From Candidatus Latescibacterota bacterium (GTDB taxonomy: Bacteria > JAAXHH01 > JACQVL01): a DNA stretch of 8,418 nucleotides. The notes under the pieces are model-generated. The model was not told where the DNA came from. It ran no database searches and saw nothing but the letters and a program-made list of their open reading frames with translations. Shown one piece after another: positions 751 through 8,276 of the stretch; the stretch's first letter is position 1, and each line of letters starts with the position of its first letter. The DNA lies in assembly GCA_016209865.1 (NCBI GenBank), contig JACQVL010000336.1:1-8418 (forward strand), in the 5' to 3' direction. The translations under genes and the position numbers were made by a program.

Positions 751-2256
751 ATGGCTAATATTCCCAACCTCGGAGATTTGCAGAAAGAGCTGAAGGAGTT
801 CTTTGCCCAGAAATACGGGCAGAACGTCACCTTTGCCCAACCGGAGGCGGAGGGCACCGACGCGGGGCCGGCGACGACCGAGCAGCCCGTCAACATCCAG
901 TTCGACCTGAAGCCGGAAGAACTGGAAGCCTACCTCAACGAGTACGTCATCCGGCAGGATGAGACGAAAGAAATCCTCGCCACGAAGATCTGCACCCATT
1001 TCAACAGGCTGAAACTCCCCGACGCGGATGAGGTGGTCGGGAATATCAAGAACAACATCATCCTGATCGGGCCGACCGGGGTGGGCAAGACCTACCTGAT
1101 CAAACTGATCGCCAAGAAAATCGGCGTGCCGTTCGTCAAGGGAGACGCAACGAAGTTCAGCGAGACAGGGTATGTGGGCGGGGATGTCGAAGACCTCGTC
1201 CGCGCCCTCGTCCATGAGGCGAAGGGCAGCATCCAACTCGCCCAGTATGGGATCATCTACATCGACGAGATCGACAAGATCGCCGCGTCCGGGACGGTCA
1301 TCGGCCCGGACGTCTCACGGACGGGCGTGCAACGCAACCTCCTGAAGTTGATGGAAGAGACCGAGGTCGACCTGCAGGCTCCGCACGACCTGGCTTCTCA
1401 GATGGAGAGCGCCCTCCAGTTTCAGCGGACGGGCAAGATCGAGCGAAAACGGATCAACACCAAACACATCCTGTTCATCGTCAGCGGCGCGTTCGCGGGC
1501 TTAGAGGACATCATCAAGCAACGGCTAAATCAGCAGCGGATTGGGTTCAGCGCGGTCGACCGGTCGTCCCACGTCGAGAACGGGTCGTGGCTGCGGCACG
1601 TCAAAGCGGAGGACCTCATCCAGTACGGGTTCGAGTCGGAATTCGTCGGCCGGCTGCCCGTCGTCGCCGTCCTCCATCCGCTGAGCAAGGATGATCTCTA
1701 CCAGATCCTGACAAACCCGAACAGTCCGGTCATCATCGGGAAGAAACGGGACTTCCAGGCGTACGGCATCACCGTCGACTTCGACGCCGCCGCCCTCCGG
1801 TTGATCGCCGAGCGGGCGTACGACGAGAAAACGGGCGCCCGCGGCCTGGTGGGTGTCTGCGAGAAAATCCTGATGAGGTACGAGAAGAAACTGCCGTCAA
1901 CGGATATCGCGCAGTTCCGGGTCACCCGGGCGGTCGTCGAACATCCGAATCAAGAACTCGACCGGCTGCTGACAGAGGCGGCCATCGCGCGGTTCGAGAG
2001 CCGCTTCCAGTCGGACAACGGCATCCGGTTGGCCCTCGACCCGGAGGCGCGCGCCGCGCTGATCGACGCCGCCCGCGCCAGCGGGAAGACGCCGGACGCC
2101 CTCGGCCGCGAGTTGTTCAAGGATTACGGGCATGGCCTCAAGCTCGTCCAACTGGAGGCGTTGACCGTCCCGAAAGCCGCGGTCGAGGACCCCGTCGGCT
2201 ACCTGAACCGGCTGATCCGGGAGTTCTATGAGAAGCAAAAAGATGGTAGTCGGTGA
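751..2256 (+). CDS. ClpX/HslU-like AAA+ unfoldase ATPase lacking the zinc domain
   Basis: This 501-residue AAA+ ATPase probably unfolds proteins in the cytoplasm and may feed a peptidase. Residues 50-400 form a HslU/ClpX-family module: Walker A GPTGVGKT (107-114), pore-1 loop GYVG (140-143), Walker B IIYIDEID (168-175), sensor 1 around ILFIVSGAF (240-248), an IGF tripeptide (264-266), arginine finger in EFVGRLP (R301) and sensor 2 GAR (362-364). Several stretches resemble HslU ([21 protein letters not shown]), while [13 protein letters not shown] and TGARGL resemble ClpX. There is no HslU I-domain between the pore loop and Walker B, and no N-terminal Cys4 zinc domain; the only cysteines are C81 and C370. 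Residues 405-501 extend beyond the usual ClpX end and are not recognised. I chose the ATG at 751 because AAGGA at 741-745 sits 5 bases upstream. The GTG at 676 would fall inside the promoter. The last codons and the stop lie in a heptad repeat. No clpP or hslV is in view. Confidence 0.88.
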
Positions 2257-7071: not shown

Positions 7072-7158
7072 ATGCCAGCAACGATTGAGCATGAGCGTGT
7101 GCCGACTTCTCAACGTCAGCAGATCCAAATCCCGTCAATGTGTGACACCCGTCACTAA
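7072..7158 (+). CDS. Possible 28-residue micro-ORF with a good ribosome binding site
   Basis: ATG at 7072 is preceded by AAGGAG (7060-7065) with six bases of spacing, as good as any start in the window. The frame runs 28 codons (MPATIEHERVP... to ...MCDTRH) and ends with TAA at 7156-7158. That TAA overlaps an ATG (TAATG, ATG at 7158) which opens the frame leading without a stop into the beta-helix gene. It could be a leader peptide, a real small protein, or the truncated start of a lost third gene in the TPR/peptidase unit. The product has no membrane segment or known motif. It overlaps the putative CRP-like site, so it would be read only from an upstream promoter. The evidence is the ribosome binding site alone. 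Confidence 0.35.
   Translation: MPATIEHERVPTSQRQQIQIPSMCDTRH
7141..7156. promoter_or_regulatory. CRP/FNR-family operator candidate (TGTGA-N6-TCACT)
   Basis: TGTGA (7141-7145), CACCCG, TCACT (7152-7156) matches the CRP half-sites TGTGA-N6-TCACA at nine of ten positions. The inner part GTGAC-N4-GTCAC is a perfect inverted repeat. Its centre lies 27.5 bases before a perfect TATAAT, close to but two bases short of the classic class II activator arrangement (about -41.5). This fits an activated promoter for the beta-helix gene. No CRP-type regulator is in the window, so its identity is inferred from the motif only. Confidence 0.45.
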
Positions 7159-7175
7159 TGAACCTTATAGCGCTC

Positions 7176-7181
7176 TATAAT
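7176..7181 (+). promoter_or_regulatory. Perfect -10 box TATAAT before the beta-helix gene
   Basis: TATAAT lies in an AT-rich patch 81 bases before the ATG at 7263. The bases 16-18 upstream (around 7152-7159) do not resemble TTGACA, which is usual when an activator replaces the -35 contact. Transcription would start near 7188, leaving about 75 bases of leader. A small inverted repeat, TATAG-CGCT-CTATA (7166-7179), overlaps it. Apart from these sites and the micro-ORF, the 7017-7262 gap shows no terminator or further gene. Confidence 0.5.
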
Positions 7182-7262
7182 ATTCAGTCAACCATACTCT
7201 CCATACCTTACGGCAAATATATGAGCATGAACCCTGTACGCTCACCTAGAGGGAGCACTGCC

Positions 7263-8276
7263 ATGAAAACCGCTACTCTTCGCATGCTGGTCATCAGCGC
7301 ATGTCTCCTCGGCATCCAGACCATGATGCCGTGGGCGGCGTTTGCGCGAATCTGGTTTGTGGACAACAATCCGGGCAACAACCCGGATTTCACCTCCGTT
7401 CAGGCCGCTCATAACGCCGCATCGCCCGGCGATTCGCTCTATGTCGCCGGCTCTTCCCAGAGTTACGCGATCGCGACGATCACCAAGCAACTCTTTATCT
7501 TTGGCCCCGGATATTTCCTGGGTGAAAACCCGGACACGCAGGCCGAACCGCTCTCCGCCATAATCCTAGGGCTGACGTTCAATGCCGGGTCGGACGGATC
7601 ACTGGTGACTGGATGCTTTATGCAGGGTACAATTACAGTCAACACCAGTGATATCACGATTAAACGCAATCGGTTCATTGTCAATAATGTCCATATCAAT
7701 ATTGCCTCGAACCTGGCGAACGTGGTCATCATCCAGAATTTCATGGATGATGCGATCAATGCCACGGGTATCAATGTCTCTTCCAACAGCCAGAACATCC
7801 TGATCGCCAATAATTATATCCAACGGCATGCCGTTGCACAGGTCATTATCTCCGACGCCACCGCTTCGCTCATCGTCAAGAATAACGTGCTGAACAACAC
7901 GCTCACCATCCATAATTCGACGTTTTACGACAATATCCTGCGGGGCGGCGCGTTCAACGGCACCAACAACGACATCCGGAATAATATCGGGAACAGTACG
8001 CAGTTCGGCACGGGCAACGGCAACCAGGAGAACGTTGACATGAACACCGTGTTTGTTGGCACCGGCAGCACGGATGGTCGGTGGCAGTTGGCCCAGGGGT
8101 CGCCCGCCATTGGCGCCGGGGTAACCGGCGGCCACATAGGCATGTATGGGGGCACCGATCCGTACGTGCTGTCCGGGATTCCATCTATTCCGGCGATCTA
8201 TTTCTTCGACGCCTCTGTCCAGGGCTCTGCCACCTCGGGGCTTCCGGTTCAGATGAAGGTGAAGTCGCGAAATTAG
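7263..8276 (+). CDS. Secreted right-handed parallel beta-helix protein
   Basis: The product is 337 residues. A clear signal peptide (MKTATLRM, a hydrophobic core, then AAFA near residue 28) is followed by RIWFVDNNPGNNPDFTSVQAAHNAASPGDSLYVAG, the typical start of pectate-lyase-like parallel beta-helix proteins. Residues about 95-245 show rungs of alternating hydrophobic and Asn/Thr/Ser residues (DITIKRNRFIVNN, NILIANNYIQ, ASLIVKNNVLNN, NDIRNNIGN), with Asn ladders. After QGSPAIGAG and GMYGGTDPYVLSGIPSIPAIYFF (293-315) it ends in a short tail, LPVQMKVKSRN. I see no catalytic residues, so a surface adhesin or structural role is as likely as glycan binding or cleavage. GAGGGAG at 7249-7255, seven bases upstream, supports the ATG at 7263. 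The open frame extends back to 7158, but that would bury the signal peptide. The gene is richer in A and T than its neighbours, hinting at transfer. A CRP-like site and TATAAT lie upstream. Confidence 0.87.
   Translation: MKTATLRMLVISACLLGIQTMMPWAAFARIWFVDNNPGNNPDFTSVQAAHNAASPGDSLYVAGSSQSYAIATITKQLFIFGPGYFLGENPDTQAEPLSAIILGLTFNAGSDGSLVTGCFMQGTITVNTSDITIKRNRFIVNNVHINIASNLANVVIIQNFMDDAINATGINVSSNSQNILIANNYIQRHAVAQVIISDATASLIVKNNVLNNTLTIHNSTFYDNILRGGAFNGTNNDIRNNIGNSTQFGTGNGNQENVDMNTVFVGTGSTDGRWQLAQGSPAIGAGVTGGHIGMYGGTDPYVLSGIPSIPAIYFFDASVQGSATSGLPVQMKVKSRN

Follow-up and report, generated by a model that had tools for sequence, protein, structure and literature searches.

A widespread ClpX-like AAA+ unfoldase with tandem small domains and a putative ClpP-docking loop

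The stretch of DNA analysed here, referred to as the window (8,418 nucleotides, contig JACQVL010000336.1 of the Candidatus Latescibacterota assembly GCA_016209865.1), carries at positions 751 to 2,256 of the forward strand an open reading frame whose 501-residue product is an AAA+ unfoldase, ClpX-like and single-ring, that has two small domains in tandem. We consider it probable that this protein is a sister of canonical ClpX and a second Clp unfoldase of the single-ring type, one that would dock on ClpP while choosing substrates other than ssrA-tagged proteins. The open reading frame is real, and an earlier note that had read it as a ClpX/HslU-related ATPase proved correct in nearly all its details.

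Results

Motor core

The motifs of the motor are found as Walker A (GPTGVGKT, residues 107–114, positions 1,069 to 1,092), the pore-1 loop GYVG (140–143, 1,168 to 1,179), Walker B (IIYIDE, 168–173, 1,252 to 1,269) and GRLP (300–303, 1,648 to 1,659), the latter holding the arginine finger Arg301; all features described lie on the forward strand. These motor motifs are invariant in the family alignment. As Walker A and B, the GYVG loop, the arginine finger and sensor 2 are all intact, the protein should form an ATP-driven hexamer able to thread proteins.

Pfam recognizes AAA_2 and ClpB_D2-small in the 501-residue protein. Among the NCBIfam models ClpX is the best, yet the scores remain under both curated cut-offs (316.4 versus 359 for NF003745 and 292.3 versus 370.75 for TIGR00382); the HslU model scores 172.9, with a cut-off of 362.45. 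The closest solved structures are ClpX chains, whose coverage is restricted to residues 52–403, and a fold search of the AAA+ core against the PDB gave a Z of 32.7 to ClpX (3hte) over 310 residues. AlphaFold2 predicts the full-length structure with a pLDDT of 82.9. The I-domain is absent, as had been claimed: GYVG and Walker B are separated by 30 residues, the same number as in ClpX, versus 163–180 in HslU. The presence of the GYVG loop and the absence of the I-domain are both ClpX-type features.

N-terminus and the Clp complement of the host genome

The zinc N-domain of ClpX is the part of that protein that binds adaptors. In the present protein its place is taken by a weakly conserved amphipathic helix (about residues 5–23, positions 763 to 819; 7–22 in the predicted structure), followed by an unconserved linker up to about residue 50. 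The lack of a Cys4 N-domain extends to the whole family, with no cysteine within residues 1–60 in any of 37 sequences. A wrongly assigned start concealing the zinc domain was considered and rejected, since the orthologues from the window's order begin at the identical residue and none of the 37 sequences has an early cysteine.

The assembly from which the window comes has 3.75 Mb and is 83% complete. It holds a standard clpX beside clpP, in a cluster that reads tig-clpP-clpX-lon, and also an hslVU pair located away from the 751–2,256 gene, its HslU ending in a normal tail, DLSRYIL. The labels tig (trigger factor), lon and hslV were given from inspection of the sequences. The canonical ClpX of this genome has the Cys motif and is 40% identical to the 751–2,256 protein. 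Given the presence of both the tig-clpP-clpX-lon cluster and hslVU, the 751–2,256 protein is an extra unfoldase rather than a mis-started ClpX. Neither of the two outcomes that would have spoken against a separate ClpP partner, a wrong start or a genome devoid of ClpP, was found. The genome contains one clear ClpP, so that no dedicated peptidase marks the pairing, and the gene sits away from clpP.

Phylogeny

In trees built on 338 columns of the AAA+ core, the family forms one clade (SH-aLRT 98 in a quick tree, 100/99 in a careful one), HslU forms a separate clade (100/100) and the ClpX of the window's genome groups with other ClpX. In the careful tree the family lies outside ClpX, with a ClpX monophyly of 62/65 and a bootstrap that had not fully converged. 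We read the family as a probable deep sister lineage of ClpX; its branching relative to ClpX and to a third group of paralogues is uncertain.

These trees bear on the explanation that the gene arose by recent local duplication of the host clpX, followed by loss of the zinc domain and rapid divergence. An AU test does not reject a single clade of the family and the ClpX of its own order (p-AU 0.156), a point in favour of such a duplication; however, members from very different phyla cluster together at 100/99, the ClpX of the window's order falls among other ClpX, and the family members have in common the second small domain, the insert at the RKH site and the residues E203 and T139. A clade that crosses phyla and shares these traits needs one old origin, and we regard local duplication as very unlikely.

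The description of the protein as a ClpX/HslU mosaic has to be revised, because the family is one coherent deep clade in which per-segment identity reveals no clear HslU-derived block. Overall identity is 0.40 to ClpX versus 0.37 to HslU and is slightly higher to ClpX in most segments, the exception being the pore-1 segment (0.53 to HslU versus 0.47 to ClpX). One HslU-like stretch is confined to some family members, others having GRDVSGRGVQ. With no clear HslU-derived block, the mosaic appearance is better read as common ancestry with retained residues. The local proximity of pore-1 to HslU, together with the hslV gene in the genome, is what could be invoked for an HslU-type partner of HslV, but the protein has neither the I-domain nor the HslU C-terminal tail, it carries an IGF loop, its HslU score is less than half of the cut-off, and hslV already has an hslU adjoining it, all of which make this the least credible of the explanations considered.

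At least two further groups of ClpX-like paralogues without a Cys4 domain were also seen. One (L147, L148 and L149, from genomes G039, G055 and G043) is a 100/100 clade, in which the two sequences that were read have GYYG for GYVG and QHW..H at the RKH site; L150, L151 and L153 are highly divergent.

Distribution

Among relatives within the window's order, 14 of 15 have a full-length orthologue; counting the window's own genome, the total for the phylum is 15 of 16. Others were found in Latescibacterota, Thermodesulfobacteriota (Desulfobacteraceae/Desulfosarcina) and Verrucomicrobiota, as well as in three further groups represented by genomes G022, G047 and G054. The last is a probable Poribacteria genome, its canonical ClpX core being identical to the core in a Poribacteria record. 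A profile of the second small domain matched 33 of 39 genomes in the phylum of G022 and, in samples drawn from the phyla to which one Verrucomicrobiota and one Thermodesulfobacteriota genome belong, 35 of 145 and 71 of 148 genomes, respectively. A full-strength ClpP match was obtained in 28 of the 29 family genomes examined, and of 13 family genomes from other phyla 12 also encode canonical ClpX; in G063, a MAG that is possibly incomplete, neither ClpP nor ClpX was found.

In the Latescibacterota genome G059, which has a family member, there are three copies of ClpP and two other ClpX matches, and two Verrucomicrobiota genomes (G068 and G071) have two ClpPs each. In Desulfobacteraceae loci L008–L013, about 55 extra residues separate the two small domains. 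Genome G069 has, besides the full-length form, a shorter relative (C42:151313-152371, an open frame of 425 residues with 46% identity across residues 47–409) that seems to stop after the first small domain; judged from its sequence, it is a possible single-small-domain cousin.

A second small domain at the C-terminus

The first AAA+ small domain spans residues 311–402 (positions 1,681 to 1,956) and contains the sensor-2 GAR motif (1,834 to 1,842). It is followed by some 95 residues that the earlier note had reported as unrecognized, rightly so in that no Pfam family matched them, either within the whole protein or with that part alone; the model ClpB_D2-small reaches them at sub-threshold level only, in 4 of 18 members. 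The same note had also suggested that this part could replace the zinc N-domain. Instead, profile and model evidence shows residues 404–497 (1,960 to 2,241) to be the AAA+ small domain of this protein repeated in tandem, in degenerate form.

Several lines of evidence lead to this assignment. Profile comparison by hhalign matched the second copy to the family's own first copy (97.9%, E 4e-13), to the ClpX small domain (95.8%) and to the HslU small domain (87.9%), while the negative controls (large-domain, N-terminal and insert segments, and column-shuffled profiles) gave at most 0.7%. When the second-copy profile was used alone in six-frame genome searches, the second match in many genomes was the first copy of the same open reading frame. 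In the full-length AlphaFold2 prediction the order helix-strand-helix-helix-strand-helix occurs twice, and one continuous helix (residues 399–423) joins the two copies. Folded alone, the second copy has a pLDDT of 94.2, and its best match in the PDB has a Z of 8.2 (2.5 Å over 82 residues), a value that is moderate by itself, although the top matches are without exception small domains of ClpX or HslU, and the further matches inspected likewise belong to AAA+ small domains. Foldseek gave a weak E-value (0.14) with a probability of 0.98. A novel domain, or a substitute for the zinc domain, is therefore rejected by the hhalign and fold matches. As the best alignment of the second copy is to the family's own first copy, an internal duplication is its likely origin.

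Two other candidates were discarded. Matches of the C-terminal profile to DnaK (E 0.005–1) span 44 residues of helix only and are thus taken as chance, and Pfam RHH matches at the C-terminus, scattered over one or two members, are equally regarded as chance.

The sensor-2 GAR motif is absent from every aligned second copy, which consequently cannot play the usual part at an ATP site. Mean conservation is 0.45 in the second copy versus 0.73 in the core, a difference that fits a structural or a lineage-specific binding role.

The RKH site and the pore loops

The segment before sensor 1 was said to be about 11 residues longer than in ClpX, and so it is: measured after Walker B, at residues 203–237 of this protein, its median length is 35 residues (32–36) in the family, versus 24 in 39 of 39 ClpX and 13 in HslU. 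Residues 204–237 (positions 1,360 to 1,461) stand there in place of the ClpX RKH loop, with an invariant Asp213 and Gln or Met at 217. The RKH motif occurs in 38 of 39 ClpX sequences and in none of 24 family sequences, where the pattern EET-V...D..[SG][QM] replaces it. In the pore-2 loop region (residues 180–191, 1,288 to 1,323), the position of E. coli ClpX Thr199 is occupied by Gly or Ser and that of Val202 by Val or Ile, and the pore-1 pair corresponding to Tyr153 and Val154 is retained.

In E. coli ClpX, the ssrA tag is contacted by Arg228 and His230 of the RKH loop, by Thr199 and Val202 of pore-2 and by Tyr153 and Val154 of pore-1, and the replacement of RKH by AAA abolishes degradation of ssrA substrates (PMC7652416, PMC7112951). 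Degradation of ssrA substrates is also missing in human ClpX, where Leu stands in place of both Thr199 and His230 (PMC7652416). With the RKH loop and the pore-2 Thr replaced and the zinc N-domain absent, ssrA-tagged proteins should escape this unfoldase, which would handle another set of substrates; we thus predict that the family member does not read ssrA. The proposal of the earlier note that the protein makes its own substrate choice gains support from these replacements.

The IGF loop

The tripeptide IGF at residues 264–266 (positions 1,540 to 1,548), corresponding to the ClpP-docking motif of ClpX, is where it had been reported, within a variable loop of low confidence in the predicted structure. 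Gly265 and Phe266 are invariant in 29 of 29 sequences, and [ILMV]GF is found in 24 of 24, with the same usage of I, L, M and V as in ClpX. In ClpX of E. coli, Ile268 and Phe270 pack into clefts of ClpP (PMC7112951). Mean conservation is 0.90 for [ILMV]GF versus 0.30 over the 17 residues downstream of the tripeptide. Retention of IGF could be ancestral; the variable flanks argue for constraint, against mere ancestral retention. The retained tripeptide is the best evidence for ClpP docking, and since ClpP is encoded in the same genomes, the protein most likely docks on the shared ClpP in competition with ClpX. The idea of a separate ClpP partner is supported at the level of sequence in this way.

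The alternative that deserves most attention is a ClpP-independent remodelling chaperone, that is, a hexamer that disassembles or matures specific complexes, with IGF as a relic or in facultative use. Some Clp unfoldases do work without ClpP, and ClpI has subclasses with or without the docking motif (PMC10149685); moreover, the gene is located away from clpP and the C-terminal domain could block or reshape the protease face. However, the G and F of [ILMV]GF are invariant over about six phyla in a loop that otherwise drifts, which is unlike a relic, and we judge this alternative to be unlikely, if well short of negligible.

Gene neighbourhood and other features of the window

In genomes of the window's order thiD-thiN lies downstream of the gene, at a gap of 28 bases in several genomes and of 96 in the window according to the open reading frame listing. 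No neighbourhood conserved across phyla was found; neighbours are lineage-specific and elsewhere look like unrelated housekeeping genes, so they suggest no substrate. At several of the Desulfobacteraceae loci L008–L013 the next gene starts with MIGISKLYCG and has a CxxxC motif; we presume, by eye, that it encodes a radical-SAM protein. At two of them a probable hemB comes after it, and a link of these members to heme synthesis is possible.

The window contains at 2,316 to 2,339 an intergenic palindromic repeat, GTCATTCCCGCGAAAGCGGGAATC, of which the genome has 180 copies (at most two mismatches, both orientations) versus 0 for a reversed control pattern; it is a dispersed REP/MITE-like element. 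At 7,158 to 8,276 there is a 372-residue protein without Pfam or NCBIfam match, which, from its asparagine-rich repeats, resembles a secreted right-handed beta-helix protein.

Discussion

We propose a model in which the hexamer would thread proteins at the expense of ATP, [ILMV]GF would dock it on the shared ClpP with ClpX as a competitor, and ssrA-tagged proteins would be spared, a different set of substrates being delivered to ClpP. Substrates might be picked by the new 204–237 loop at the pore entrance and possibly also by the N-terminal helix. The second small domain, held rigid through the shared helix, cannot supply sensor 2; more speculatively, it would thicken or stabilize the periphery of the ring, or else present a surface for adaptors or for the ClpP rim.

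In a bolder form, to which we would give somewhat less than an even chance, the family would represent a third single-ring Clp unfoldase class, with an age matching that of several phyla, that uses the shared ClpP and reads another degron through the remodelled pore entrance, with the second small domain as an extra tier or adaptor platform unlike solved Clp structures. If the model is true, many members of Verrucomicrobiota and Thermodesulfobacteriota operate one ClpP with two unfoldases, one of them blind to ssrA, and regulated proteolysis in those phyla has an unread half with unknown degrons. The replacement at the RKH site amounts to a natural experiment in how specificity depends on the loops of the pore entrance, and the tandem small domain illustrates in simple form the growth of an AAA+ ring through domain duplication.

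The search of the open-access literature on ClpX paralogues returned no description of this unfoldase family, which is apparently an undescribed, well-defined and widespread variant; the comparison with Myxococcus xanthus ClpX3 was made by description only. ClpX3 (MXAN_2743), a paralogue encoded away from clpP and 43.5% identical to E. coli ClpX, has neither N-domain nor RKH motif, and thermotolerance depends on it (PMC11423568). By that description, the present family resembles it in its location away from clpP and in the absence of the N-domain and the RKH motif, and one of the further Cys4-less paralogue groups may correspond to it. The ClpI unfoldases of Actinomycetota, a class overlooked until it was found by sequence and including members with a ClpP-docking motif (PMC10149685), are a precedent for overlooked Clp classes, but they are of the double-ring ClpB/ClpC type and unrelated in architecture.

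The family shares with HslU (ClpY) the AAA+ core, the absence of a zinc domain and similar pore-1 and Walker B stretches; unlike HslU, it has no I-domain and no HslV-docking C-terminal tail, it has the IGF loop, and it forms a separate clade. With canonical ClpX (NF003745/TIGR00382) it has in common the fold of the AAA+ core, about 40% identity, GYVG, [ILMV]GF and the absence of an I-domain. It differs from canonical ClpX in lacking the Cys4 domain, the pore-2 Thr199 and the RKH loop, in whose place there is a segment 11 residues longer, in its extra small domain, in its location outside the tig-clpP-clpX cluster and in scoring under both curated cut-offs.
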